Below, one piece after another: positions 11,343-35,522 of a DNA stretch of 40,014 nucleotides. Below the pieces are notes generated by a model. It searched no databases and had not been told where the DNA came from. It was given only the letters and a program-made list of their open reading frames with translations. Source of the stretch: Bacillota bacterium (GTDB lineage Bacteria > Bacillota > Clostridia > SK-Y3); contig JAKSBV010000075.1 in the NCBI GenBank assembly GCA_022360955.1, positions 1-40,014 on the forward strand, written 5' to 3'. The translations under genes were made by a program, and so were the position numbers. The first letter of the stretch is position 1. Each line of letters begins with the position of its first letter.

Positions 11343-11640
11343 TGATTGGGGGGTGTATAAATGCTGGCTGACGAAAATGATTCCAACAAAAATACCGAAC
11401 TTTAAACTTCAAACTATATTGGAACAAGCAATGATGGTTTTCCATTTTTTGTTCCAATATGAATTCGATTTTAAAGTTCGGTACTCAACAACCGGTATTC
11501 CAATGCTAAAAAGCAGTTAAGCGCTGAAAGTTGAGAATACTTCACTAACAACCTCTAAAACAGCTTATAATTCTTTATTTTAGAATCACTCATGAATCCC
11601 CAATAATCTAATTCTTCATTCTTAATTCTTCATTAACAAC
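11343..11640. repeat. Dispersed AT-rich intergenic repeat, family R1 (copy with embedded hairpin)
   Basis: The left end GGGGTGTATAAATGCTGGCTG and the right part (CTAAAAAGCAGTTAAGCGCTG, then CACTAACAACCTCTAAAAC, then AATCTAATTCTTCATTCTT) recur with changes at 32279-32505; only the left end recurs at 7069-7093. The block fills the gap between the EamA operon and the transketolase genes and has no reading frame with a plausible start. A 91-base double-stem hairpin (11393-11483) sits inside this copy but not inside the copy at 32.3 kb, as if inserted. Confidence 0.65.
11393..11483 (+). repeat. Double-stem palindromic element, copy A
   Basis: Outer arms TACCGAACTTTAAA (11393-11406) and TTTAAAGTTCGGTA (11470-11483) are perfect, as are inner arms ATATTGGAACAA (11416-11427) and TTGTTCCAATAT (11449-11460). 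The loop contains AATGATGGTTTT. A second copy with the same plan and compensating base changes lies in inverse orientation at 35423-35517. No gene is encoded. Confidence 0.8.
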
Positions 11641-11679: not shown

Positions 11680-12615
11680 TTACTTGCTTAATAGGTCATT
11701 TGCATTCTTTACTATGGTTTCGACGTCAAGCCCATAATACGCTGCCAGGTCCGGCCTTTTCCCCGAGCGCCCGAAGGTATCCTTTACGCCCACTTTTCTG
11801 ATCTTCACCGGATATTTCTCTGTGACAACCTCGGAAACGGCACTTCCCAATCCACCCACGACGTTATGGTCTTCAACAGTCACAATCCCTTGGGTCTCTT
11901 TTGCCGCTTTTATAATGATATCTGCATCAATCGGCTTAATACTGCACATATCAATGACTCTTGCAGCAACCCCTTGATCCTCTAAAACAGCGGCGGCTTT
12001 TACCGCTTCATACACCATCTCTCCTACCGCAATAATAGTGACATCACAACCCTCTTTCAAAACGGTTGCTTTGCCGATTTCAAATTTAAAGGTATTGCTG
12101 TCATAGATAACCGGAACATCCATACGTCCGAATCTCATATATACAGGGCCCTCATAGTTCATGGCTGCTTCCACTACGGCCCGCGCTTCAACGGCGTCGG
12201 CAGGGGCTAAGACAACAAAACCGGGAAGGGTTCTCATGATTGATAAATCCTCAATACATTGATGTGAACCGCCGTCCTCCCCAATTAACAAACCACCATG
12301 TGTGCCCCCTATTTTTACATTCAGGCGGGGATATGCAATTGAATTTCTAATCTGTTCATAGGCCCTGCCGGCAGCGAACATTGCAAAAGTGCTGGCAAAA
12401 ACCATCTTTCCGCAGCTGGCAATGCCTGCAGCCGTCGACATCATATCACATTCTGCAATGCCCATATTGAAGAACCGCTGGGGATAGACATCTTGAAACA
12501 TCTTTGTCATCGTGGCCTTCGATAAATCTGCGTCCAGCACCAAAAAGTCGTATTTTTCTCCTAATTCCGCCAGTGCCATCCCATAAGCCTTTCGGGTCGA
12601 CATCTTATTCTGCAT
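11680..12615 (-). CDS. Transketolase, C-terminal subunit
   Basis: Second half of a two-subunit transketolase (pyrimidine-binding and C-terminal domains), 311 residues. It transfers two-carbon units between pentose phosphates using thiamine diphosphate, together with the N-terminal subunit encoded just before. The Pyr domain (about 5-170) shows LDADLSKATM, FFNMGIAECDMMSTAAGIA with the catalytic Glu of the GIAE motif, and EDGGSHQCIEDL; the C-terminal domain (about 185-305) has TVEDHNVVGGLGSAV. GGAGG nine bases before the ATG at 12615 supports that start, which overlaps the preceding gene by 11 bases. It closes the long operon; the gap downstream has no clear terminator, only an R1 repeat. Confidence 0.94.
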   Translation of the reverse strand: MQNKMSTRKAYGMALAELGEKYDFLVLDADLSKATMTKMFQDVYPQRFFNMGIAECDMMSTAAGIASCGKMVFASTFAMFAAGRAYEQIRNSIAYPRLNVKIGGTHGGLLIGEDGGSHQCIEDLSIMRTLPGFVVLAPADAVEARAVVEAAMNYEGPVYMRFGRMDVPVIYDSNTFKFEIGKATVLKEGCDVTIIAVGEMVYEAVKAAAVLEDQGVAARVIDMCSIKPIDADIIIKAAKETQGIVTVEDHNVVGGLGSAVSEVVTEKYPVKIRKVGVKDTFGRSGKRPDLAAYYGLDVETIVKNANDLLSK

Positions 12616-13462
12616 GATGAAGCACCTCCAAATCCCTTATTTTTTGTTCCAACTCTGCAATGGCCATATCTCTTTGTTCCTTATTTGGAGCTGCTCCATG
12701 CCATTCAACCCGATTTTCCATAAAAGATACGCCCTGCCCTTTGATCGTTTTACAGAGAATCAGCGTAGGCATACCCTGAGTATTTTTGGCGGCATCAACC
12801 GCCTGAAGCAATTGCGCTATATCATGTCCGTCAACTTTGATTACATGCCACCCAAAGGCCTCAAACTTCTTGTCGATAGCACCCAGTGACATCACTTCGT
12901 CAACAGCGCCATCAATCTGAAGCCCATTATGATCCAAAAAGGCAATTATATTGTCGAGCTTATAATGTGCCGCTGTCATTGCTGCTTCCCACACTTGCCC
13001 TTCTTGTGATTCCCCATCCCCGAGAATACAAAATACGTGATAATCCTTTTTCATGTATTTTCCTGCTATCGCCATACCGTTAGCAGCCGACAGCCCTTGC
13101 CCTAAAGAACCGGTTGACATGTCAATGCCCGGTACTTTATTCATATCCGGGTGTCCTTGCAGAAAACTATCGCACTGCCTTAAACGGGATAGTTCCTCGC
13201 GACCGAAAAAGCCTTTTTCTGCCAATGCCCCGTATAGCGCCGGTGCCGTATGACCTTTCGACAGTACTAATCGATCCCTGTCCTCCCATTTTGGACGATT
13301 GGTATCAACATTCATGACACTAAAATATAGAACAGACAGTATATCCGTGATAGACAACGACCCTCCGGGATGCCCGGAACTACAGCTATAGGTTGATTCA
13401 ATGACATGTCTTTTAATGTTGATAGACGTTTTCTTCAATGCAGCAATTTTCTTATCCGTCAT
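12605..13462 (-). CDS. Transketolase, N-terminal subunit
   Basis: Thiamine-diphosphate-binding PP domain of a split transketolase, 285 residues. Motifs are SSGHPGGSLSITDIL, SKGHTAPALYGALAEKGF, STGSLGQGLSAANGMA, and the TPP/Mg signature GDGESQEGQVWEAAM followed by LDHNGLQIDG. Three ATG codons stand in tandem (13468, 13465, 13462). AAAGGAG lies seven bases before the third and only one base before the first, so 13462 is preferred. It overlaps the C-terminal subunit gene, so the two are translationally coupled. In this operon the enzyme would feed xylulose-5-phosphate made by the upstream epimerases into the pentose phosphate pathway. Confidence 0.94.
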   Translation of the reverse strand: MTDKKIAALKKTSINIKRHVIESTYSCSSGHPGGSLSITDILSVLYFSVMNVDTNRPKWEDRDRLVLSKGHTAPALYGALAEKGFFGREELSRLRQCDSFLQGHPDMNKVPGIDMSTGSLGQGLSAANGMAIAGKYMKKDYHVFCILGDGESQEGQVWEAAMTAAHYKLDNIIAFLDHNGLQIDGAVDEVMSLGAIDKKFEAFGWHVIKVDGHDIAQLLQAVDAAKNTQGMPTLILCKTIKGQGVSFMENRVEWHGAAPNKEQRDMAIAELEQKIRDLEVLHHAE

Positions 13463-13506
13463 CATCATACTCCTTTAACCTTTTTATATTTACCGATACC
13501 CAATCC

Positions 13507-14532
13507 CTAAGCCTTTTTAAGCTCATATAATGCAACTTCGTCAATCTGCCTGTTGGCAGACAGTATAAACACACGATCCTTTTCATGGGCCACTGAGATT
13601 TGGCTCGGTCCGGTATCTTCGTCAATTTGAATCGTCACCATCTTACCGGTGCTTTTATCCTTTTGAATACACATAAGTTCCATTCTGTCACGTCTGTAAC
13701 CTACCAGGAAAGATTGCTTCCCTAAGATATCTCCCCCCCAAACCACATGGCCGAAGTCAATATCCTGTTCATATACAGGCTTCCATCCCGCATCCTTTTT
13801 ATAAATGACAAATTTATTGCCATGAAAGGGTTCAATGGTTCCGATTTCCAAATGACCGTCACCATCTATATCACAGACGGCAATGTCACTCACTTCATGA
13901 TCTAATATTCTTTCGGTTTTCCATTCCCCGCCGGCATCTTCCGGTATATAAACAAGAAAAACACCCTCAACGCCGGTTATAAAATATCCCCGTTTTTCAT
14001 CCCACGTCACAGCACAAAAACCATGATTTTTTGTGATACCGTCTAAAACCTTTTTCGTTTCAAAGGGTTTATCAAAACCTTCGCTGAGTTTCCCAACGTA
14101 TACGGCTCCCGGTTTTGACCAATCCTGCTGAAATTCTTTACCGCTGCAAAGGGTGGCACCGATAAAATAGACTTCACCGGAAATAACAAAAAGATCAAAA
14201 CGATGAAGATAGGGAAAGGGCATAACAGGCTTCACCGACCAACTGCCCTCCTCATATTTCACATAATGCAGCATACACTCTTTTGCATCAAATACGGGAA
14301 AGAACTGCTGCGTTGCAAGGAATTCACCTTCTCTGCCCGGTATGGGCACTATATTCATGGTTCCACCGGGCCCATCCCACACCACCGTCTCCTGATTCCC
14401 AGCATGTTCATAGGCACAGCATTGACCTCTTCCTTCTGTTGCGGCTAAAAAAAGCAGCTCGTTATCGATCTTTGTATAAGCTGTAGCATAAACCTTTTCA
14501 ATTGACCCTAATATTTTCTTATGAATGTTCAT
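13507..14532 (-). CDS. Cytosolic FG-GAP/VCBS-like beta-propeller protein of unknown function
   Basis: Protein of 341 residues with no signal peptide or membrane span. It is rich in short beta-strand repeats resembling a propeller. One clear FG-GAP calcium-binding loop is visible, DIDGDGHLEIGTIEPFHG (residues 221-238), with weaker repeats before it (for example NHGFCAVTWDEKRGYFITG) and after it (GHVVWGGDILGKQSFLVGY). FG-GAP proteins are usually secreted, so a cytosolic one inside a sugar catabolic operon is unusual. It lies between the sugar isomerase and transketolase genes, with AAGGAT before the ATG, and is plainly part of the operon. It may be an enzyme (lyase, isomerase or lactonase) in the pathway; no catalytic residues could be assigned. 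The function is not recognised. Confidence 0.65.
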   Translation of the reverse strand: MNIHKKILGSIEKVYATAYTKIDNELLFLAATEGRGQCCAYEHAGNQETVVWDGPGGTMNIVPIPGREGEFLATQQFFPVFDAKECMLHYVKYEEGSWSVKPVMPFPYLHRFDLFVISGEVYFIGATLCSGKEFQQDWSKPGAVYVGKLSEGFDKPFETKKVLDGITKNHGFCAVTWDEKRGYFITGVEGVFLVYIPEDAGGEWKTERILDHEVSDIAVCDIDGDGHLEIGTIEPFHGNKFVIYKKDAGWKPVYEQDIDFGHVVWGGDILGKQSFLVGYRRDRMELMCIQKDKSTGKMVTIQIDEDTGPSQISVAHEKDRVFILSANRQIDEVALYELKKA

Positions 14533-14597: not shown

Positions 14598-15416
14598 CTA
14601 TGCCAGTCCGATTTTGTTAAAAAATTCTATCCCTTTTTCTGCGCAGGTCTTTCCGTCCGGCAAAGCCAGTGCTTCCAGACATAAGTACCCATTATAGCGA
14701 ATCTGCTTTAACACTTCGTATATTTTCACCATATCCATATGACCCATGCCCGGGGCCAATCTGTTGGAATCCACAAAATGGATATGCTGAATGAGTGCTT
14801 GACATTTGATCAGACTATCTTCGATTGAGACATCTTCAATATTCATATGAAATGTATCCAGCATCAAATACAGAGGAAGTCCGCATTTTTGTATAAAATC
14901 ATAGGCCTCTATGCTTGCGTTGAGCGTATTGATTTCATATCGATTGATAGGTTCAACCACCAGCTTTACATCATATTTCTCCGCATAGGGAATCAGCTTC
15001 TCCGAGGAATCTGCAAACCTCTCCAAAAGCGCCTCTGCCGTATCATTTCTTTTTACGCTCCCTCTTACAAGGCCCAGCGAAACCATTGCATTGACCTGTG
15101 AGGCATAAACAATGATTTCCTTCATTCTTTTAATGATTTCTTCTCTGATGTCTTTATCCATATCGCCTAAGAACAATCCGGCTTTTGCCATAGCAGCCGG
15201 CATCACTACGCCAACGCCCAGGCCATTGGCTTTCAATAATGTTATTGCTTTCCTGCTGACCTCCTCTTTAGGGTCCAAAACAAACAAATCCACCCCATCA
15301 TACCCAATCTCTTTGATATAGGGAATATTTTCCTCAATATTGCCGGAGAACAGTACCGGTGCATTTTTATCGGCTTTAAAAAGAGAAAGCGAAACTGACT
15401 TTTTAACTTTAATCAC
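14598..15416 (-). CDS. Sugar phosphate isomerase/epimerase (xylose-isomerase-like TIM barrel)
   Basis: Metal-dependent (beta/alpha)8 enzyme of the AP-endonuclease-2 / sugar isomerase fold, 272 residues. Probable metal ligands are the Glu of VVEPINRYE, Asp of LMLDTFHMN, His of HIHFVDSNR and Glu of CLEALALP, in the usual order. Its place beside lactonase and 4-epimerase genes matches that of UlaE (L-xylulose-5-phosphate 3-epimerase), but sequence likeness to UlaE is not obvious by eye, so the reaction is open. The start is GTG at 15416, immediately after the AraD stop codon, with no strong RBS: translation is probably coupled. There is no alternative ATG nearby. Confidence 0.85.
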   Translation of the reverse strand: MIKVKKSVSLSLFKADKNAPVLFSGNIEENIPYIKEIGYDGVDLFVLDPKEEVSRKAITLLKANGLGVGVVMPAAMAKAGLFLGDMDKDIREEIIKRMKEIIVYASQVNAMVSLGLVRGSVKRNDTAEALLERFADSSEKLIPYAEKYDVKLVVEPINRYEINTLNASIEAYDFIQKCGLPLYLMLDTFHMNIEDVSIEDSLIKCQALIQHIHFVDSNRLAPGMGHMDMVKIYEVLKQIRYNGYLCLEALALPDGKTCAEKGIEFFNKIGLA

Positions 15417-16115
15417 CTACTTGCTTTGATAAAAATATGAATTCTTACCATATTTTCTCGTGTAGTGCTTTTCTGTCATGTATTCGGGCAGCAAGAGCCC
15501 CTTTCCCCCGTTTATATCCATGGACAGCTTAGCCATTTTAGCAATTTCTTCAAGTATTACACTATGTTCCACGGCAGAAGCGGCATCCTTGCCCCAGGTG
15601 AAAGGTCCGTGTCCCGGTGTCAATACCGCACCCATTTCAAGGGGATCTCTGCCGGCAAACAATTCACATATAATTTGTCCGACTATCCTCTCATAATCTC
15701 CCGTTACTTCTTCTTCGGTCAATTGTCTTGTACAAGGGATCTCCCCGTAAAAGTGATCCGCATGTGTCGTACCCAGCACCGGAATGCTTTGGCCGGCTTG
15801 ACTCCATGCTGTCGCCCAGGTCGAATGGGTGTGGGCAATACCTCCTACGTTTTCAAATGCTTTATATATTTCCAGATGGATATCCAAATCTACCGAGGGC
15901 AATAGCTTGCCCTCAACCAACTTTCCGTCCATATCAACCACCGACATATCATCGGCAGTTAATTGATCATATTCAATGCCTCTCGGCTTTATCACTACAA
16001 TATTATTTTCCCGGTCAATCGCACTGACATTACCCCAAGTATATATCACCAGCCCCCTGTCAACCAGTTCCAGATTGGCTCTATAGACCTCTGCTTTCAA
16101 TGTTTTCAAGTCCAT
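15417..16115 (-). CDS. araD: L-ribulose-5-phosphate 4-epimerase (AraD/UlaF/SgbE family)
   Basis: Class II aldolase-fold, zinc-dependent enzyme that converts L-ribulose-5-phosphate to D-xylulose-5-phosphate. The 232 residues match E. coli AraD numbering: Asp76 (PSVDLDIH), zinc ligands His95 and His97 (AHTHSTWATAW), Asp120 (GTTHADHFYG), third zinc ligand His169 (TPGHGPFTWG) and a C-terminal Tyr-rich tail. AAAGGAG precedes the ATG at 16115. It follows the ulaG-type gene by 28 bases and abuts the isomerase gene. No arabinose genes lie near, so its partner here is the lactonase; UlaF is the likely functional counterpart. Product D-xylulose-5-P would be used by the transketolase at the operon end. 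Confidence 0.96.
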   Translation of the reverse strand: MDLKTLKAEVYRANLELVDRGLVIYTWGNVSAIDRENNIVVIKPRGIEYDQLTADDMSVVDMDGKLVEGKLLPSVDLDIHLEIYKAFENVGGIAHTHSTWATAWSQAGQSIPVLGTTHADHFYGEIPCTRQLTEEEVTGDYERIVGQIICELFAGRDPLEMGAVLTPGHGPFTWGKDAASAVEHSVILEEIAKMAKLSMDINGGKGLLLPEYMTEKHYTRKYGKNSYFYQSK

Positions 16116-16143: not shown

Positions 16144-17226
16144 TTATAGGAACGATTTGAACGGTACATTGGGCTCGTCGGTGAATGCATCCGAGAATCC
16201 ACGTTCAAACATAAATCTCTTCTTATCCTTATCGTCAGGATATACATATCCTCCGCCAACTTCCCACAGGAATACATTGAATTGATAATTCAATCTGTCT
16301 TTTCTAAAATTGTATACCAATTCCACCTCTCTCGGATCGCCTAACATATTGGACCAAATATCGTAATGGAACGGAATCAGTACTTTTGCATTAAGGTTTT
16401 CGGCTATTCTGCAGCAATCAACGGACGTCACTTTGTCCGAGCATCCGATCGGATTCTCCCCGTAGGATACCAAAACCACATCAATCTCGTGGTCTTTACC
16501 GTGTTTTACATAGTAGTTAGACATATGAGAATCTCCACTATGATATATGTTTCCGCCCGGGGTTTTGATAATAAAGTTGACTGCTCTGTCGTCCATATCG
16601 TCGGGAAGCCTGCCTCTGATATCTCCGGCCGGCGGTGCCGTAATCAAAGCCGTTCTGTCAAAGGAATCGACTGCAACAATTTCGATATCTTTGATCTTAA
16701 TACTGTCACCGGGTCTTACGACCGTAATTCTCTCTTCCGGCACGCCCCATTTTCTCCAGATGTTCGCACTGAATTCGGGTCCTATAAACGGTGCGTCGGT
16801 ATTCTTAACGATGGCAGCCGCAACATAGGGATCAATGTGATCTCTATGAAAATGAGTGGATAAAACGGCATCCATCTTTGTAAACGCAAACGGGTCAATG
16901 ACCATCGGAGCACTTCTGGCATTGGGCTGCCATTGTCTGCTGCCTGTCATTCTGGCCATTTGAAAATCTTTACCCTGTCCCCACTCGGGCGGTTCGGGAA
17001 ACTTTCTTGTCTGCTTTCCTGTGTCTAACCACAGGTCTATAATAATATTACAATCGGCCGGCGTTTTAACCCATATACCCGTACAACCGAGCCACCACAT
17101 TGCAAATTTATTCGGTTCCACTACCGTATTGTCAATTTTTTCATTGAGGAATGTGCCCCATTCCGGGAATACATTATTAATCCACGTTTGTCTGTCCAAA
17201 TCTTTGATATTTACATCATTTATCAT
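16144..17226 (-). CDS. ulaG: UlaG-type L-ascorbate-6-phosphate lactonase (metallo-beta-lactamase fold)
   Basis: Predicted cytosolic Mn-dependent lactonase of 360 residues, resembling E. coli UlaG (about 354) along its whole length. Shared segments include FAMWWLGCTGIWVKT, the metal motif THFHRDHID (His125, His127, Asp129, His130), GPEFSANIWRKWGVPEERI, FDRTALITAP, DDRAVNFIIKTPGG, YHSGDSHMSNYYVKHG, SYGENP, IPFHYDIWSN and a C-terminus ending in PFKSFL. UlaG opens the lactone of L-ascorbate-6-phosphate. Here there is no ascorbate PTS to make that phosphate; the gene follows tctA by three bases. So the natural substrate may be an unphosphorylated or differently made lactone. GGAGTGAGTAAACG precedes the ATG. 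Family assignment is firm; exact substrate is inference. Confidence 0.95.
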   Translation of the reverse strand: MINDVNIKDLDRQTWINNVFPEWGTFLNEKIDNTVVEPNKFAMWWLGCTGIWVKTPADCNIIIDLWLDTGKQTRKFPEPPEWGQGKDFQMARMTGSRQWQPNARSAPMVIDPFAFTKMDAVLSTHFHRDHIDPYVAAAIVKNTDAPFIGPEFSANIWRKWGVPEERITVVRPGDSIKIKDIEIVAVDSFDRTALITAPPAGDIRGRLPDDMDDRAVNFIIKTPGGNIYHSGDSHMSNYYVKHGKDHEIDVVLVSYGENPIGCSDKVTSVDCCRIAENLNAKVLIPFHYDIWSNMLGDPREVELVYNFRKDRLNYQFNVFLWEVGGGYVYPDDKDKKRFMFERGFSDAFTDEPNVPFKSFL

Positions 17227-17229
17227 CGT

Positions 17230-18741
17230 TTACTCACTCCTTAACGGTTTCATTTTTAATTTGGCCCTTACCTTTGGATTAGATAAGACGGCACTGATGA
17301 TCGGTAACACAACAGCTAGTACAAAAAATACCGTTCCGATTGATACTTGTTTCAGACACTCTTGAAAACTACCGTAATATACAATGGCTCTTCTCATATT
17401 ATCCTCAATAATCCTGCCAAGTACATTGGCCAGTATAAAGGGTGCAAGGGGATAATCATTTTTATCCAAGATATATCCGATGATGACAAAACCTATTAAA
17501 TACACGAGATCAAATACATTGTTATTTAAACTGATTACACCGGTAATACAAAATACCGATATAATGGGAAATAAATAACTTTTGGGGACTTCAATGATCT
17601 TGCTCATATATCTTATGGTGGACACCTGGAACAAGTACATCAGAATGTTAGCAATCAATACTATGAATATGATTGATTTAAACAATACCGGTTGGTTCAT
17701 GCTTAAAAGCGGCCCGGCCGTCAGGCCCTGTAAAGTTAATGCCCCCATGATGATAGCCGTGGTCGTATCACCGGGCACGCCTAACGCAAGCATAGGGATC
17801 AATGCCCCGCCGGTTGTGGCGTTGTTGGCACTTTCACAGCAAAAGATCCCTTCTTCATGGCCTGTTCCAAACAATTCGGGATGCTTGGACGTTTTTTTGG
17901 CTTGGGCATAGGAAATCAAAGAAGCAGCTCCACCCCCCATTCCCGGCAATATGCCTATGAAAGTGCCGAGAACACTGCCTCTAAACATTGTTGACGTATA
18001 TTTTTTAATTGTCGGCATATCCGGTATATAAAATTTCTTTTTCTTAATTTCGGAAGGCTTTATTTTTTCTTTTATTTTTCCGATTGAATAAAGAATTTCG
18101 GGAAGCGCGAATATACCAATGATGACAACAATTAAGTCAAACCCGCTTTCCAAATTATAATTACCAAAGGTATATCTCGCTGCGATGCCGTCAACCGGGC
18201 TCATCCCCACTGTTTTTAACAATAAGCCCAATGTGACTGCTATAAACCCTTTCAGCATTTTACCCTGCATTAATACACACACCAACACAAGGGATAGTGT
18301 AGCCGTGCCAAAGTATTCCCAAGGTCCGAAGCCTATTGCCATTTTTGCAAGCAGCGGCGCCAAAGCCAATAGACATACGGTGCTGAATATGCCTCCGAAA
18401 AAAGAAGCAAATGCACCGTAAGACAACGCTTCCGTTCCTCTTCCCTTTTGTGCCATAGGATACCCGTCAAAGGTAGTAGCAACGGACGCTGCGGTACCGG
18501 GAATTTTTAATAGGATTGCAGATACCAATCCTCCCGATACACACCCCATATATAATCCCATAATAATACATATTGCCGGGATCGTATCCATCGCAAATGT
18601 AATGGGCAGAACCAAAGCCACTGCAATCGGTGCGTTAAGCCCCGGTATGCAGCCAAACACATTACCGACTGCAACGCCTACCAGTATCAGCAATATATAT
18701 TGAGGGTGCAAAACGTTTTGAATAACTTCAATAAATTCCAT
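17230..18741 (-). CDS. tctA: Tripartite tricarboxylate transporter, large membrane subunit TctA
   Basis: Large membrane permease (503 residues, about 11-12 spans) of a TTT-family secondary transporter that imports carboxylates with a periplasmic-type binding protein. Signature segments are FGCIPGLNAPIAVALVLPITF near the N-terminus (split here as GCIPGLNAPIAVAL), IPGTAASVATTFDGYPMAQKG, GILPGMGGGAASLISYAQAKK, and AIIMGALTLQGLTAGP. AAAGGAG lies before the ATG at 18741. It follows tctB by 25 bases and precedes ulaG by three bases, tying the transporter tightly to the lactonase. TTT systems usually carry citrate-like or aromatic and sugar-derived acids; a sugar acid fits this operon. Confidence 0.96.
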   Translation of the reverse strand: MEFIEVIQNVLHPQYILLILVGVAVGNVFGCIPGLNAPIAVALVLPITFAMDTIPAICIIMGLYMGCVSGGLVSAILLKIPGTAASVATTFDGYPMAQKGRGTEALSYGAFASFFGGIFSTVCLLALAPLLAKMAIGFGPWEYFGTATLSLVLVCVLMQGKMLKGFIAVTLGLLLKTVGMSPVDGIAARYTFGNYNLESGFDLIVVIIGIFALPEILYSIGKIKEKIKPSEIKKKKFYIPDMPTIKKYTSTMFRGSVLGTFIGILPGMGGGAASLISYAQAKKTSKHPELFGTGHEEGIFCCESANNATTGGALIPMLALGVPGDTTTAIIMGALTLQGLTAGPLLSMNQPVLFKSIIFIVLIANILMYLFQVSTIRYMSKIIEVPKSYLFPIISVFCITGVISLNNNVFDLVYLIGFVIIGYILDKNDYPLAPFILANVLGRIIEDNMRRAIVYYGSFQECLKQVSIGTVFFVLAVVLPIISAVLSNPKVRAKLKMKPLRSE

Positions 18742-18766: not shown

Positions 18767-19243
18767 TTATTTGAGAATTCCTTTCGGTAACAATATATTT
18801 AATACATTGCCAAAGAAATAATTCAGTATTAAAACACCTGCAACAATAGAAATCACAATGATCATTTCGGTTTTTACAGCGGGTAATCTGCCATTTTGCA
18901 GATAATAAAAATAATTAATCAAAATGAATAAATAAAGCAGTGACGAAATGATAAAGCCTAATTGAGTTAATACCGCAATATAAGCAATCGTAAGTAATAA
19001 ATAGACTAATCGGGAGCCTTTAAACATCTCTGTAAACGCAAAAGGCTTTCTTTCTTCTTTCTTTGTTCTTAATATTGCTATAAGCCTTATCAACATAAAA
19101 AATAGCAGCAAAATAATAATAATTCTAGGGAATAGGGCGGCGCCCCCCGACTTGTCGATGATGCTTACGGGAAAATCATACGTCATAATAAACATTATAA
19201 TTGCAGCTATGGCTATGATGACCATGAACAATATTTCACCCAT
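18767..19243 (-). CDS. tctB: Tripartite tricarboxylate transporter, small membrane subunit TctB
   Basis: Small membrane subunit of 158 residues with four predicted spans: MGEILFMVIIAIAAIIMFIM, a pair near 37-60, another near 80-110, and 125-150. The loop after the first span, SGGAALFPRIIIILLLFF, is the TctB-typical segment (usually GPGFFP). AAGGAG lies before the ATG. It sits between tctC (with a 337-base structured gap) and tctA. Confidence 0.92.
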   Translation of the reverse strand: MGEILFMVIIAIAAIIMFIMTYDFPVSIIDKSGGAALFPRIIIILLLFFMLIRLIAILRTKKEERKPFAFTEMFKGSRLVYLLLTIAYIAVLTQLGFIISSLLYLFILINYFYYLQNGRLPAVKTEMIIVISIVAGVLILNYFFGNVLNILLPKGILK

Positions 19244-19580: not shown

Positions 19581-20618
19581 CTATTCTCCTATAATTGCTT
19601 TTGCAGTCTTTTGGAAAGCTGCATAGGTTTCTTCCATTGCCTTCGTATACGCTTCAACGGTGGTATAAGCCGGACTATAGGCCAATTTATTGAGTTCTTC
19701 AATACATTCCGGATCATTGGCAGCCTGTTTAATAAGATTATTGATATAATTGACTGCTTCTTTCGGCGTGCCTTTCGGTGCCCAAATCCCGAATGCTTGT
19801 TTTAAATACTCGTAATTTTCATATCCTAATCCTTTAAAGGTATCGAGTTGTTCATATCCTACGATTTCATTATCGCTGATAATGCCTAGACATCTGAATT
19901 CTCCGCTGTCAACATACTGTTTTACGGCACCGAATCCGTCAATATAGCCGTCAATACGATTGCCGAGTAATTCAGGTGCTTTTGACGTTCCGGCTAAGTC
20001 TACTTTCTTGAACTGAATGTCTTTTTGCATTTCGACTTCAATAATCGCAAATAAGGGCAATGTCCCCGTCACCGAACCCATTTTAACGGTTTCGGGATTT
20101 TCTTTGGCTGCATTTATTAAATCGTCAAGGGTTTTGTATTCCGAATCAGCATTAACCACAATAGCCAATTTTGAATCCAGCCACTGTCCTATCGGCTCAA
20201 AGTCTTCATAGGTAAAGTCTGCCACACCCAGGGCATATTGCATAGGGTATCCAACGGGCTGCATAATTAACATTGAACCGTCGGGATCGGATTTCATGAC
20301 TTCTTTTGCTCCGACTCTCCCCCCGGAACCCGTAATATTTGTTACCTTTACTTCTTTTGCAGAGTATTTACTCATATATTTTGCGAAAATTCTTGCGGGA
20401 ACGTCACTGTTTCCACCGGCCGCAAAGGGCACTACGAAAGTAATTTCTTTTTCAGGTACATACGCATCTGCAGGTTTTTCACCATCATCTTTGCCGTTAT
20501 CGGCAACTTTATCCGATGGCTCCTCCGCCTTCTTACCATCATCCGGTGCGCCGCATCCAATCAGCGATACAATCATAACCAGGCCTAATAACAATACTAA
20601 AATTTTTTTCATATGCAT
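19581..20618 (-). CDS. tctC: Tripartite tricarboxylate transporter substrate-binding lipoprotein TctC
   Basis: Extracytoplasmic solute-binding protein (345 residues) of the TTT (Bug) family, anchored as a lipoprotein. A basic start MHMKK, hydrophobic stretch and lipobox SLIGC with Cys22 are followed by an acidic linker rich in Asp, Glu and Lys (23-55). The mature domain begins with the Bug signature ITFVVPFAAGGNSDVPAR, and has GRVGAKEVMKSDPDGSMLI and GIWAPKGTPKEAVNYINNLI. Two ATG codons (20618 and 20612) both fit the AGGAGAGG RBS. It is the first gene of the long operon, with a promoter and operator about 175-205 bases upstream. The bound acid is unknown. Confidence 0.96.
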   Translation of the reverse strand: MHMKKILVLLLGLVMIVSLIGCGAPDDGKKAEEPSDKVADNGKDDGEKPADAYVPEKEITFVVPFAAGGNSDVPARIFAKYMSKYSAKEVKVTNITGSGGRVGAKEVMKSDPDGSMLIMQPVGYPMQYALGVADFTYEDFEPIGQWLDSKLAIVVNADSEYKTLDDLINAAKENPETVKMGSVTGTLPLFAIIEVEMQKDIQFKKVDLAGTSKAPELLGNRIDGYIDGFGAVKQYVDSGEFRCLGIISDNEIVGYEQLDTFKGLGYENYEYLKQAFGIWAPKGTPKEAVNYINNLIKQAANDPECIEELNKLAYSPAYTTVEAYTKAMEETYAAFQKTAKAIIGE

Positions 20619-20667: not shown

Positions 20668-20715
20668 CTATAGATAACGCATTGTAAAGTTGGAAATATA
20701 ATCGTACTACGGCAA
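20668..20715. repeat. Single MITE-like end (family R2)
   Basis: CTATAGATAAC, then GTAAAGTTGGAAATATAATC and GTACTACGGC match the terminal inverted repeats of the R2 elements at 22.1 and 26.7 kb. Only one end is seen here, in the leader between the operon promoter and tctC. Confidence 0.6.
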
Positions 20716-20772: not shown

Positions 20773-20793
20773 TATGGTGGTAATACCTCCATA
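20773..20793. promoter_or_regulatory. Candidate GntR-type operator at the tctC promoter
   Basis: A 21-base palindrome TATGG-T-GGTA-A-TACC-T-CCATA, with nine of ten pairs matching, starts just past the -10 box. Its core GTGGTAATACC is repeated exactly (minus strand) just past the -10 box of the UroD-like gene at 23431-23441. FadR-subfamily GntR regulators bind sites of the TGGT...ACCA type. The nearby GntR gene is the obvious candidate. Confidence 0.75.
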
Positions 20794-20798
20794 TCAAT

Positions 20799-20827
20799 AG
20801 TTTACACAAATATTTGCTATTTGTCAA
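20799..20827 (-). promoter_or_regulatory. Promoter of the tctCBA-ulaG-araD-transketolase operon
   Basis: Minus strand TTGACA (20827-20822), exact 17-base spacer, TAAACT (20804-20799). The operator palindrome begins five bases downstream of the -10 box, so a bound repressor would cover the transcription start. Confidence 0.7.
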
Positions 20828-20837
20828 TATGTTTTTT

Positions 20838-21056
20838 CTACAACCTGCACAATAATTGTATAAAATTCTTCAATTGTCTATGTCGAGATAAGTCAATCAG
20901 ATGGGTTTTATTTGAAATTTCAAGCAATAGATAGCTTCTGCCAATATAAGTGTGGTCAAACATTATACTCTTTTTTTCAATTTTCGCATTAACATTTTTC
21001 CCAGATATATCAAAATCCGCACCGATGCCGACAATACGGTAATATCTTAGGGTCAT
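20838..21056 (-). CDS. Possible small ORF of unknown function (doubtful)
   Basis: A 72-codon frame, MTLRYYRIVGIGADFDISG..., with a basic C-terminus, lies upstream of the tctC promoter. AAAGG is only three bases before the ATG, no promoter is clear and no family is recognised. It could be a remnant of an older gene. The promoter for tctC begins only 11 bases past its stop. Confidence 0.2.
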   Translation of the reverse strand: MTLRYYRIVGIGADFDISGKNVNAKIEKKSIMFDHTYIGRSYLLLEISNKTHLIDLSRHRQLKNFIQLLCRL

Positions 21057-21245
21057 ATGCCTTTGTTATGTTTGGCACCCGGAAGTGGGAGATCAGAAGG
21101 CGGAGGTCGGAAAATGACTAAATAAGGACGCATAGTAAAATAGCAACGAGGTATGTTACAATACTGGGGACATGCCTGCATAGAAAAGATGTCCTGGAAA
21201 TGCGCAGGCCGATTGATGAGTATAAAATGGCCTGAATCCGCCCAG

Positions 21246-21288
21246 AAACCAAAAGGGCTTAATGCCCTCCTAAAAAATTATTTGGTTT
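21246..21288 (-). terminator. Intrinsic terminator of the gntR gene
   Basis: Minus strand AGGGC-ATTAA-GCCCT followed by TTTT; the flanks AAACCAAA and TTTGGTTT can lengthen the stem. It begins just after the stop codon at 21293. Confidence 0.7.
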
Positions 21289-21292
21289 TATC

Positions 21293-22003
21293 TCAGGCAT
21301 CATGATAAATGTGCTCCTTAATAATATTTTCAACTTCCTCAATGTGCTCATACATCGCTTTGGATGCTTTCTCGCCGTCACGAGCAGCAATGGCACGATA
21401 GATCTCTTTATGGTATGATGTTACCTTTTGACGAAAACCCAGTTGTTTAGCCGCTTCTGCTTGATGAATCCTGACGGATGCCCTGATTCCGTCCAAAAAC
21501 TTTACAAACATCGTATTATGCGTTGCTAACGCAATAGCTCTATGGAATCCATTATCCAATTTATATAAAAGCGCCATGTCCTCCGGCCCTTTATTCTCAA
21601 TAATCTGCTGTTCTCTTCGAATCATGAAGTCTTTGATCACTTCCAGCTCTTCCTCGGTTGCATTCTGACTGGCAAGCCTTGCACCCTCCGATTCCATTAT
21701 CTTTCTGACTTCAATGAGTTCGAGTATTGGTGTCTTGTCAAGGAGGGAATACATATAAAGCGTGTGTCCCACTTGCTCCGGATCGTATTCATTGACAAAA
21801 GTGCCATAACCGTGCTTGGTTGTTAAAATACCGATCTGACACAGGGAACTAATAGCCTCTCTGACGGGAACCCTGCTCACATCCAACGCTTCAGCCAGTT
21901 CTCTTTCATTTTGCAGTTTATCACCGGGTTTGAGCTCACCGTTTTTGATGTTTTCCAATATGTAATCAAAGATTTGATCACTGATTCTTTTTTTATTAAT
22001 CAT
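21293..22003 (-). CDS. FadR/GntR-family regulator with FCD ligand domain
   Basis: One-component regulator of 236 residues. The N-terminal GntR winged helix (about 5-72) reads IKNGELKPGDKLQNERELAE then ALDVSRVPVREAISSLCQIG and HGYGTFV. The C-terminal FCD domain (about 95-225) holds likely metal/ligand residues: Asp and His of LDNGFHRAIA, His of TSYHKEIY and His of MYEHIEEV. FCD regulators commonly sense sugar acids or other carboxylates, which fits a carboxylate transporter. AAGGA lies before the ATG at 22003. It is flanked by the two promoters sharing the GTGGTAATACC operator, so it most likely controls both. Its own promoter (TATAAT 22043-22038, TTAACT -35) contains a different palindrome, ATCATATGAT. 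Confidence 0.94.
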   Translation of the reverse strand: MINKKRISDQIFDYILENIKNGELKPGDKLQNERELAEALDVSRVPVREAISSLCQIGILTTKHGYGTFVNEYDPEQVGHTLYMYSLLDKTPILELIEVRKIMESEGARLASQNATEEELEVIKDFMIRREQQIIENKGPEDMALLYKLDNGFHRAIALATHNTMFVKFLDGIRASVRIHQAEAAKQLGFRQKVTSYHKEIYRAIAARDGEKASKAMYEHIEEVENIIKEHIYHDA

Positions 22004-22037
22004 AGTCCATCCTTCTAAAAATTTATTTTATATCCGT

Positions 22038-22066
22038 ATTATATCATATGATGTCATTTAAGTTAA
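22038..22066 (-). promoter_or_regulatory. Putative gntR promoter
   Basis: Minus strand TTAACT (22066-22061), 17-base spacer, perfect TATAAT (22043-22038). A 10-base palindrome ATCATATGAT (22043-22052) lies in the spacer. Confidence 0.55.
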
Positions 22067-22081
22067 CTTTTTTTACTTGCA

Positions 22082-22305
22082 ACACATTGCGGCACTGTAA
22101 AGTTAGAAACATCATGGTACTACGGCAACGGGCATTTCAAAACTAAAAAGCAGTTGAGGGCTGAGAGATGAGCTGCCCACCGTTCACGACACCTGGTTGT
22201 TGTTTTACTCTCCGCCCCTGTTTAATCTTTCCGGCCCTCTGACCTCAGACCTCCGGTCATAAGGTTATTATATTTCTAATGCTAGTGTGGATTATCTATA
22301 CATTC
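22082..22305. repeat. MITE-like element, family R2
   Basis: The left end (CACTGTAAAGTTAGAAACATC) and right end (TTATTATATTTCTAATGC) are degenerate inverted repeats of each other. The interior shares CTAAAAAGCAGTTGAGGGCT, the CTCTGACCTC segment and CATAAGGTTA with the copy at 26688-26930. It fills most of the 333-base gap between the UroD-like gene and gntR; no gene is inside. Confidence 0.7.
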
Positions 22306-22336
22306 ACACCGTTTTCATACAAATTCTTTTTTTCGT

Positions 22337-23365
22337 TCAGGATAATTTACCATATTTCTCAAAACACTCATAGGAAAAAACAAAGTCCTCATGCGTTGCT
22401 CCGATGGAATTTAAGAACCTGTATTCCGCCGCAATCAATCCTCCGCGGGGTGTTGCCCAGTATTCAATCAGATCCTTTACCTCCTGCTCAATAAGTTCTT
22501 TATTGCCTGTCGGCAACGTATCTTGAATGTCTACGGAAACATCAAAGCAGATTCTTCCTGCAAACTTTTCTCCGATTTCTTTTATGCCCAGTGTTCTCGG
22601 TTGGTGAATATTAACGATATCGACACCTATTTCTATCAGGTCTTCTATAATTTCATTGATCTTGCCGCATGAATGAAGCGTAAAAAACATGCCGGCATCG
22701 TGGACAACTTCAATTAACTTTTTGTATCTGGGTTTAAATATGTCTCTCCAGAGCTGGGGTTCAACCATTAATGCATTTTGTGTGCCCCAATCGTCCGAGG
22801 TTTCAAAACAATGGATCCTGCCCTTTCCGATTTCCTGCGCTTGTTTTGCAATGCCTATTTGATAGTCCAGTAATTTGTCACACAAGTCTTCTAAATTCTC
22901 TCTATCCGTATAGAAATCAACCAAGGTATTTTCGAAGCCTCTCAAAAAATGCAGTCTCTCGAATATACAGTACTGGCTGTTGAGCTGAACCCATTGCCCT
23001 TGCGCTTCACTGCAGGCCAAGGCTTCTTCTAACCCGTCAAATCTCCCGGCATCATATGGGTCAGGGACTTTATAGCTTTCATAATCGGTTTCCCAATCTT
23101 CAATGGGATGGGTAATAGGCTGTCCAAGGGCAAAATCGTCGTTCTCTATCTTATTTCCCCACATACAGCCCCATTCATCAATTTCATTGGGATTAAAACG
23201 TGCTTTCTTTCTCATATCCGCTTCTTCATCCGGTCTTCTTCTGCTTCTTGGTTTTTGTATAAAGAGTCTTAACATATCGCCTTTTCCCAACGTCGGATAT
23301 TTGATGCCAATCCGCCCGGGATTATCAAAAGTGACATTTTTCTTTATGATTTCATATCCGTTCAT
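22337..23365 (-). CDS. Uroporphyrinogen decarboxylase-family protein (MtaA/CmuA-like)
   Basis: Soluble (beta/alpha)8 protein of 342 residues in the URO-D superfamily, which includes heme-pathway decarboxylase and cobalamin- or corrinoid-linked methyltransferases. Recognised by HSCGKINEIIEDLIEIGVDI (His231 and Cys233, at the position of zinc ligands in the methyltransferase branch), IHQPRTLGIKEIGEKFAGRI, and a TPRGGLIAAEYRF end. The N-terminal arginine motif of true HemE is not visible, so heme synthesis is unlikely; no heme genes are nearby. GGGGGAG precedes the ATG. Its strong promoter carries the same operator as tctC, so it belongs to the same regulon and may act on the same substrate, perhaps in demethylation or decarboxylation. 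Function is inference. Confidence 0.85.
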   Translation of the reverse strand: MNGYEIIKKNVTFDNPGRIGIKYPTLGKGDMLRLFIQKPRSRRRPDEEADMRKKARFNPNEIDEWGCMWGNKIENDDFALGQPITHPIEDWETDYESYKVPDPYDAGRFDGLEEALACSEAQGQWVQLNSQYCIFERLHFLRGFENTLVDFYTDRENLEDLCDKLLDYQIGIAKQAQEIGKGRIHCFETSDDWGTQNALMVEPQLWRDIFKPRYKKLIEVVHDAGMFFTLHSCGKINEIIEDLIEIGVDIVNIHQPRTLGIKEIGEKFAGRICFDVSVDIQDTLPTGNKELIEQEVKDLIEYWATPRGGLIAAEYRFLNSIGATHEDFVFSYECFEKYGKLS

Positions 23366-23424
23366 CTTATCTCCCCCAATACATTTTAAACCGATTCCCC
23401 TTGATTGGTATATCGATCTAATGG

Positions 23425-23444
23425 TATGTTGGTATTACCACTAA
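23425..23444. promoter_or_regulatory. Candidate GntR-type operator at the UroD-like promoter
   Basis: Minus strand TTAGTGGTAATACCAACATA matches the tctC operator at GTGGTAATACC and CATA. It starts a few bases downstream of the -10 box, the same placement as at tctC. Confidence 0.7.
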
Positions 23445-23448
23445 TCTT

Positions 23449-23478
23449 ATTATACTTTTTTTTATTATTTTCTGTCAA
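23449..23478 (-). promoter_or_regulatory. Promoter of the UroD-like gene
   Basis: Minus strand perfect TTGACA (23478-23473), 18-base spacer, perfect TATAAT (23454-23449). This is among the strongest promoters in the window. Confidence 0.85.
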
Positions 23479-24924: not shown

Positions 24925-25074
24925 TCCGGAAGTCAGAAGTCGGACCATTATATTGCACGCTCTCCTGATGGCTCACAATTCCGACCTCTGCCCTTTGACC
25001 TCCACCTCCGGTTCACAAGATTGTTTTCATACGATTATATTTCAAACGTTACTGTTTATTATCTATCGATTTTG
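24925..25074. repeat. MITE-like element, family R2 (left part degenerate)
   Basis: The right end ATACGATTATATTTC...TTATTATCTATCGAT (25029-25072) and the interior TTTGACCTCCACCTCCGGTT match the 26.7-kb copy. The left end is missing or rearranged: GGAAGTCAGAAGTCGGACC at 24928 resembles the interior in reverse. No gene is inside. Confidence 0.6.
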
Positions 25075-26690: not shown

Positions 26691-26930
26691 CAAGCAGTAA
26701 GGTTGGAAATATAATCGTACTCCAACCACAGCTATTCCGAATCTAAAAAGTGGTTGAGGGCTGAGAGTTGAGAATGAACCGCCTACCATTCATGACCCCT
26801 TGTTGCTGATTACTTTGTGCTCCTGTCTGGCTATTTCCGACTTCCACCCTCTGACCTCCGGTTCATAAGGTTACTTCCATACGATTATATTTCTAATTAA
26901 AGTTGGTTATCTATAGATAACCAACTTTAA
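26688..26930. repeat. MITE-like element, family R2 (best preserved copy)
   Basis: Left end TAACAAGCAGTAAGGTTGG plus AAATATAATCGTAC; right end ATACGATTATATTTCTAA. The two ends share GAAATATAATCGTA in inverted orientation. The interior carries AATCTAAAAAGTGGTTGAGG and CTGACCTCCGGTTCATAAGG. Length is about 240 bases, with no frame. The right edge is a perfect 34-base palindrome (26897-26930). With the copies at 20.7, 22.1 and 25.0 kb this makes a non-autonomous element family. Confidence 0.75.
26897..26930. repeat. Perfect 34-base palindrome
   Basis: TTAAAGTTGGTTATCTA is followed directly by its exact reverse complement, with no loop base. It lies at the outer edge of the R2 element. The central CTATAGATAA recurs at the other R2 ends in mutated form. 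It may form a cruciform or, in RNA, a terminator-like hairpin for the peptidase transcript, though no T-run follows. Confidence 0.7.
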
Positions 26931-32278: not shown

Positions 32279-32505
32279 GAAGCGCAGGATGTATAAATTA
32301 GGGCTGAAAAAAATTATTTCAACAGAGATAACAAACCTTACACCTTAAAATCCAAAAGTAGTTGAGGGCTGCAAGATAAGGCAACACTAACAGACTCTAA
32401 AACAACTTATGATTCATTCTTTATTCTAAAATTACTCATAATCCCCCAAAATCTAATTCTTAATTCTTCATTACTCATTATTCATTATTAATTATTAATT
32501 ATCCC
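32279..32505. repeat. Dispersed AT-rich intergenic repeat, family R1
   Basis: GGATGTATAAATTAGGGCTG at the left, AAAAGTAGTTGAGGGCTG in the middle and a right part ACTCTAAAACAACTTATGA ... AATCTAATTCTTAATTCTTC match the copy at 11343-11640. The right end is a run of near-repeats of ATTCATTA/ATTAATTA. It fills the gap between the cadA-type gene and the permease promoter; no gene inside. Confidence 0.65.
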
Positions 32506-35422: not shown

Positions 35423-35517
35423 AGATATCGCACTTTAAGATTGAATTGATATTTGAACAAAAAACGTAAAACCATCGTTGTTTGTTCAAATGTATTGAGG
35501 TATAAAGTGCGCTATCT
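35423..35517 (-). repeat. Double-stem palindromic element, copy B
   Basis: Outer arms CGCACTTTA (35430-35438) and TAAAGTGCG (35503-35511); inner arms ATTTGAACAAA and TTTGTTCAAAT. The loop on the minus strand reads AACGATGGTTTTACG, matching copy A (AATGATGGTTTTCC) at 11393-11483. It lies just downstream of the ArsR-type regulator stop codon, so it may also end up in that mRNA. Confidence 0.8.
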
Positions 35518-35522
35518 TTAAT
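35503..35522. repeat. Left 20-base inverted repeat bounding the regulator-GH2 cassette
   Basis: The reverse complement of this site differs at one base from 38661-38680: ATTAAAGATAGC(G/A)CACTTTA. Together they frame a 3.1-kb segment with two genes. The left copy is also the outer arm of palindromic element B. Confidence 0.65.

Follow-up and report, generated by a model that had tools for sequence, protein, structure and literature searches.

Among the closest described systems is the E. coli ula regulon for L-ascorbate (UlaR; ulaG, ulaABCDEF). The locus analysed here lies in a window of 40,014 nucleotides (the whole stretch of DNA that was analysed) from a bacterium of the Clostridia, and resembles that regulon in having a UlaG lactonase and a putative UlaF-type epimerase, with products expected to lead to D-xylulose-5-phosphate. 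It differs as follows: the window operon carries genes tctCBA of a tripartite tricarboxylate-type transporter (TTT) and not the UlaABC PTS; its regulator is of the GntR/FCD type, with no adjacent UlaR (DeoR) or BglG-type regulator; an IolO-like epimerase probably stands in for UlaE, and there is no UlaD; and a UroD-like gene, a beta-propeller gene and, within the operon, a split transketolase are added.

All genes of the locus are on the minus strand. The operon begins with tctC (19581..20618), the solute receptor of the TTT, followed by the small membrane subunit gene tctB (18767..19243), assigned by its position and by orthologues in two other genomic loci, L126 (Clostridium sp. MCC353) and L151 (chh4-2), and the large membrane subunit gene tctA (17230..18741), whose product is 75-76% identical to TctA of the same two loci. 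UlaG (16144..17226) belongs to the L-ascorbate-6-phosphate lactonase family (NCBIfam equivalog, 541.6 bits against a cut-off of 306). The next gene encodes an AraD/UlaF-type L-ribulose-5-phosphate 4-epimerase (15417..16115; PRK08193, 313 bits, cut-off 257), which scores above its subfamily cut-off yet does not reach the TIGR00760 equivalog, and is followed by an IolO-like sugar 3-epimerase (14598..15416), likely in the place of UlaE, which at 221 bits is below the 300-bit equivalog cut-off. The FG-GAP-like beta-propeller protein (13507..14532), kept beside UlaG, is a candidate for the missing UlaD step, and the N-terminal (tktN, 12605..13468) and C-terminal (tktC, 11680..12615) halves of a transketolase complete the operon. 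Upstream of tctC lie the genes of a GntR/FCD regulator of the FadR type (21293..22003) and of the UroD-like enzyme (22337..23365), a member of the URO-D superfamily (Pfam PF01208, 52.1 bits) from a subfamily linked to Ula and TTT genes. A kinase would be required because TTT uptake is non-phosphorylating; neither the operon nor the motif scans described below revealed one.

The two promoters agree with the original prediction, both being on the minus strand: the tctC promoter (20799..20827) has the -35 box TTGACA (20822-20827), a 17-nt spacer and the -10 box TAAACT (20799-20804), and the uroD-like promoter (23449..23478) has TTGACA (23473-23478), an 18-nt spacer and TATAAT (23449-23454). The -10 boxes are of unequal quality (4/6 for tctC and 6/6 for uroD-like). 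The 11-mer GTGGTAATACC, predicted to follow both -10 boxes, is found exactly at 20777-20787 on the plus strand and at 23431-23441 on the minus strand. Its placement had been called identical; the position after the -10 box is indeed the same, but the 11-mer is inverted, lying on opposite strands relative to transcription, which hardly matters since its core is a palindrome. The putative operator of tctC, O1 (20773..20793, without strand; TATGGTGGTAATACCTCCATA), is a near-perfect 21-bp palindrome just 3′ of the -10 box, with 9/10 arm positions paired; that of the uroD-like gene, O2 (23425..23445, without strand; ATTAGTGGTAATACCAACATA on the minus strand), also 3′ of the -10 box, is weaker, with 6/10 paired. 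The core GGT begins 11 nt (tctC) and 9 nt (uroD-like) past the -10 box. Both cores have the GGT-N3-ACC form typical of half-sites for GntR/FadR-type regulators, as in the E. coli PdhR box; no such site was found upstream of gntR itself.

The PdhR box is AATTGGTnnnACCAATT, for which a comparison of 35 targets gave the core GGTnnnACC (PMC7660256). The window regulator has an N-terminal GntR winged helix-turn-helix domain (68 bits) and a C-terminal FCD domain (85.9 bits), both above the Pfam cut-off, and the solved structures closest to it include FadR, PdhR, NanR and PDB 2di3. It thus shares with the FadR subfamily (PdhR, LldR, GlcC) both the domain architecture and operators with a GGT-N3-ACC core, but has other target genes, and it falls under every NCBIfam equivalog cut-off, the best being LldR with 120 of 311 bits. 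As predicted, its gene lies between the two promoters. This position, together with the binding of GGT-N3-ACC by FadR-type regulators, makes it the natural candidate binder and presumed repressor at O1 and O2; judging from sequence, it probably binds both. Its specificity is uncertain, since the window genome has 18 GntR-family matches and one paralogue has the same core at its own promoters. That GntR/FCD paralogue (contig C256; its locus is L086, 8040-13581) is 34-36% identical and adjoins a sulfatase gene and another tctCBA set; GGTATTACC directly follows the -10 box of the paralogue's gene, and GGTAATACCACATACC (GGTAATACC) precedes the sulfatase gene, so the core GGTAWTACC is present at both promoters of this locus, as in the window operators. 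The core alone therefore assigns no site to one paralogue and defines no regulon; the sulfatase-tctCBA operon may be a third target. Across six genomes of the family, one of them the window's, no GntR orthologue exceeded 36% identity. In L126, a sulfatase gene is also located 3′ of gntR.

The motif was scanned over the window genome, a 4.64-Mb draft in 522 contigs that is 97% complete. When up to one mismatch was allowed, the extended motif TNGTGGTAATACCNNCATA, with 15 fixed positions, had no matches other than those at the tctC and uroD-like promoters; many unrelated copies would have spoken against the prediction, and the next independent match (contig C166) has 2 mismatches. The symmetric 21-mer was found at O1 and O2 and, with 3 mismatches, at two other places (contigs C211 and C272), which were not retained as further targets, as one overlaps an unrelated ORF at its start and the other is inside an unrelated ORF. 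The bare 11-mer occurs 5 times genome-wide against about 2 expected from 4^11, and its 2-mismatch matches within the window (13 versus 8.0 expected) are barely above chance; the case therefore depends on the exact matches at the two promoters and on the conservation of this pair. Of the predicted motif and regulon, then, the uniqueness of the extended motif to the two promoters stands, whereas the GGTAWTACC core is not specific. The genome scan had also been expected to reveal the missing kinase and decarboxylase genes, but neither the TNGTGGTAATACCNNCATA nor the symmetric 21-mer scan yielded any.

Sites of the same type, likewise placed after the -10 box, recur in three other genomes. In L126 and L151, TTGGTAACACCAA and TTGGTAAGACCAA are located 13 nt past the tctC -10 box (counted from GGT). 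In L135 (Epulopiscium), where tctC and uroD lie on different strands, GGT-N3-ACC is found 6 nt (uroD) and 5 nt (tctC) past the -10 box, and a further site precedes the propeller gene; no gntR was found within the stretch read, although the sites are present.

Gene order provided further evidence. In both L126 and L151 the genes tctC-tctB-tctA-ulaG-araD-iolO-tktN-tktC-uroD-FGGAP-gntR follow one another and share a strand; in L126, where the string ends in gntR, tktC and uroD are separated by 0 bp, and uroD and FGGAP overlap by 4 bp. What in the window are two operator-joined units therefore form one continuous string in these loci. A Spirochaetia contig, L127, has uroD adjoining gntR. A search of genome contigs for UroD orthologues gave 80 loci with an alignment query and none with a single-protein query, and a plasmid search gave remote URO-D matches only. 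UlaG, Ula-PTS or TTT genes were located within 10 kb of 23/27 close orthologues (47-65% identity), compared with 1/52 remote homologues. The window genome itself has a UroD paralogue (53-54%) on contig C78, in the order MtlR-UlaA-UlaB-UlaC-UroD-HPr-EI, with Pfam support for IIC and IIA; C78 overlaps contig C424 (EI-UlaG2-FGGAP2) by 323 bp at 99%, so that a second ula locus extends over two contigs (L070 1-7717 and L101) and comprises MtlR, UlaABC, UroD2, HPr, EI, UlaG2 and FGGAP2.

The gene string, the linkage of 23 of the 27 orthologues and the recurrence of the sites in three genomes bear out the assignment of the UroD-like gene to the TTT/UlaG operon, and the gene linkage, which is stronger evidence than the motif for a functional link, supports the unexpected role in sugar-acid metabolism proposed for this URO-D-family protein. 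The enzyme very probably works in the breakdown of vitamin-C-like sugar acids. That the shared motif is a coincidence or the site of another regulator, with the UroD-like gene a mere neighbour, might be argued from the GGTAWTACC core, of which tens of chance occurrences are expected in 4.6 Mb and which also occurs at the C256 locus; against the uniqueness of the extended motif, the placement kept in three other genomes and the L126/L151 string, this explanation is very improbable. A search of the open-access literature for UroD with UlaG or the ascorbate PTS returned no relevant paper, although absence there does not prove novelty. After consideration, the methyl-sulfur/selenium mlp clusters (PMC10418091) were set aside; the main text of that paper says nothing of ascorbate or PTS.

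The structure model of the UroD-like protein (pLDDT 94) has MtaA (4ay7) and then UroD as its nearest folds, with a TM-score of about 0.6. The zinc ligands of MtaA/CmuA are His-x-Cys plus a third Cys. The window protein has His-x-Cys (H231-S-C233), which is found in 5/29 close sequences, namely those linked to TTT or GntR genes, the window's included; H-x-D replaces it in the other 24/29, mostly from Ula-PTS operons. No third Cys ligand is conserved at the expected place among the 29, while E314 is conserved in the UroD-like sequences. The motif E-x14-E-x20-H, the zinc motif of methyltransferase I of O-demethylases, is absent from the window protein and from 23/29 orthologues and present in 6/29. 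The protein resembles MtaA/CmuA and other URO-D corrinoid methyltransferases in fold, in His-x-Cys and in the corrinoid genes co-located in some orthologue loci, but differs from them in sequence (19% identity, and an MtaA/CmuA family score of 32.7 of 235.4 bits, far under the curated cut-off), in the H-x-D of most orthologues and in that most members have no adjacent corrinoid gene. HemE, uroporphyrinogen decarboxylase, shares the superfamily and the fold (TM about 0.57), but identity in structural alignments is 14-18%, there is no match to the hemE equivalog, only weak MtaA/MtbA-type ones, and the context of the UroD-like gene is that of sugar acids.

Which reaction the UroD-like enzyme catalyses was considered against the missing UlaD step. 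UlaD was not found in the window genome, where the PF00215 matches are PyrF- and Rpe-like only, nor in the 11 further genomes with UlaG in the class sample, nor by BLAST in 12/15 UroD-orthologue genomes; one of the three BLAST matches (G397) has a SIS-domain protein as its neighbour and resembles HPS-PHI. These absences, together with small gene sets such as kinase-UlaG-UroD (L142) and PTE lactonase-tkt-AraD-UroD (L130), would fit a UroD-like enzyme that is itself the missing UlaD, a metal-assisted 3-keto-L-gulonate(-6-phosphate) decarboxylase new in the URO-D superfamily. However, UlaD is likewise missing where a UlaG operon has no UroD-like gene, which means that the step is filled in some other way, and the nearest fold is MtaA, not UroD. 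The FG-GAP-like propeller is present in 26/27 genomes (12/12 with UlaG in the class sample and 14/15 with a UroD orthologue), where it coexists with the UroD-like enzyme; G396, the only checked genome without it, has a UlaD homologue. The propeller has no Pfam match over the cut-off, and a PDB sequence search found no match for it or for the UroD profile, but its structure model is confident (pLDDT 95), and its invariant Asp and His residues, the latter including four (110, 170, 237, 262), suggest an enzyme. It appears to be the best candidate for the UlaD step and a better substitute than the UroD-like enzyme, which therefore probably performs an added step. Replacement of UlaD by the UroD-like enzyme alone is thereby weakened, and we regard the decarboxylase as unlikely.

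A serious possibility, short of an even chance, is that the enzyme is a corrinoid-dependent methyltransferase, a demethylase through which O-methylated substrates resembling ascorbate would enter the ula pathway. Genes for a corrinoid protein and RACo accompany UroD/UlaA at 7/27 close loci (L141, L146, L148, L150, L152, L134 and L140), where they lie within or alongside Ula-PTS/UroD clusters of Lachnospiraceae and relatives; three of these loci (L141, L150 and L152) also have MtaA-like genes. These are possibly uncharacterised demethylation clusters. A pterin-binding protein is encoded directly 3′ of UroD in L141 and, by its sequence, in L152, and corrinoid proteins of stand-alone size were found in 16/16 genomes checked, the window genome included. 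These observations favour demethylation over decarboxylation, and the MtaA-like fold and the His-x-Cys of the TTT clade agree with it. Conversely, most UroD loci, including that of the window, have no corrinoid genes nearby, the H-x-D of most sequences and the lack of a clear third Cys and, in most, of the E-x14-E-x20-H motif argue against it as described above, and in any case a corrinoid protein may be nothing unusual among such anaerobes. A reaction other than demethylation or decarboxylation is conceivable, with slightly less confidence than demethylation.

Taken as a whole, a local GntR repressor with two co-controlled units and a variant of the ascorbate route with a UroD-like step is, in our judgement, probable. 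The GntR/FCD protein would bind the GGT-N3-ACC palindromes over the start region just 3′ of each -10 box and so control two units, tctCBA-ulaG-araD-iolO-FGGAP-tktN-tktC and a monocistronic uroD-like gene; the substrate or an intermediate would release it, and both units would be induced together. In the pathway, TTT uptake would replace the PTS, followed by the UlaG lactonase, a substitute for the UlaD step, an IolO-type 3-epimerase for UlaE, the AraD 4-epimerase (L-xylulose-5-phosphate to D-xylulose-5-phosphate) and transketolase, with the UroD-like enzyme carrying out one step specific to its substrate class. We infer binding by this GntR protein, repression, the inducer, co-transcription and the reaction of each enzyme.

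With these results a URO-D subfamily of Clostridia, Chloroflexi and Spirochaetes that had no assignment before gains a place in a sugar-acid pathway, and the UlaG-type ascorbate operons sampled in the class are without UlaD, with a conserved propeller instead. Tentatively, they may represent a widespread anaerobic ascorbate-type branch that uses a URO-D enzyme for a step outside the known ula pathway, either B12-dependent demethylation of O-methylated sugar acids or keto-gulonate decarboxylation, and the propeller for UlaD. The operator pair would be a ready reporter for identifying the true substrate.

Dispersed intergenic repeats, 73-96% identical, were found in the window at 11388-11635, 20679-20715, 22092-22267, 25004-25070, 26697-26930, 32385-32480 and 35426-35519; the tctC leader holds one of them, and another precedes gntR. 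In four UroD-containing ula operons, L128 (6412-8031), L129, L131 and L144, creatininase-family genes were found to be located between UlaC and UlaA, accompanied by a HAD gene in L128, L129 and L131.
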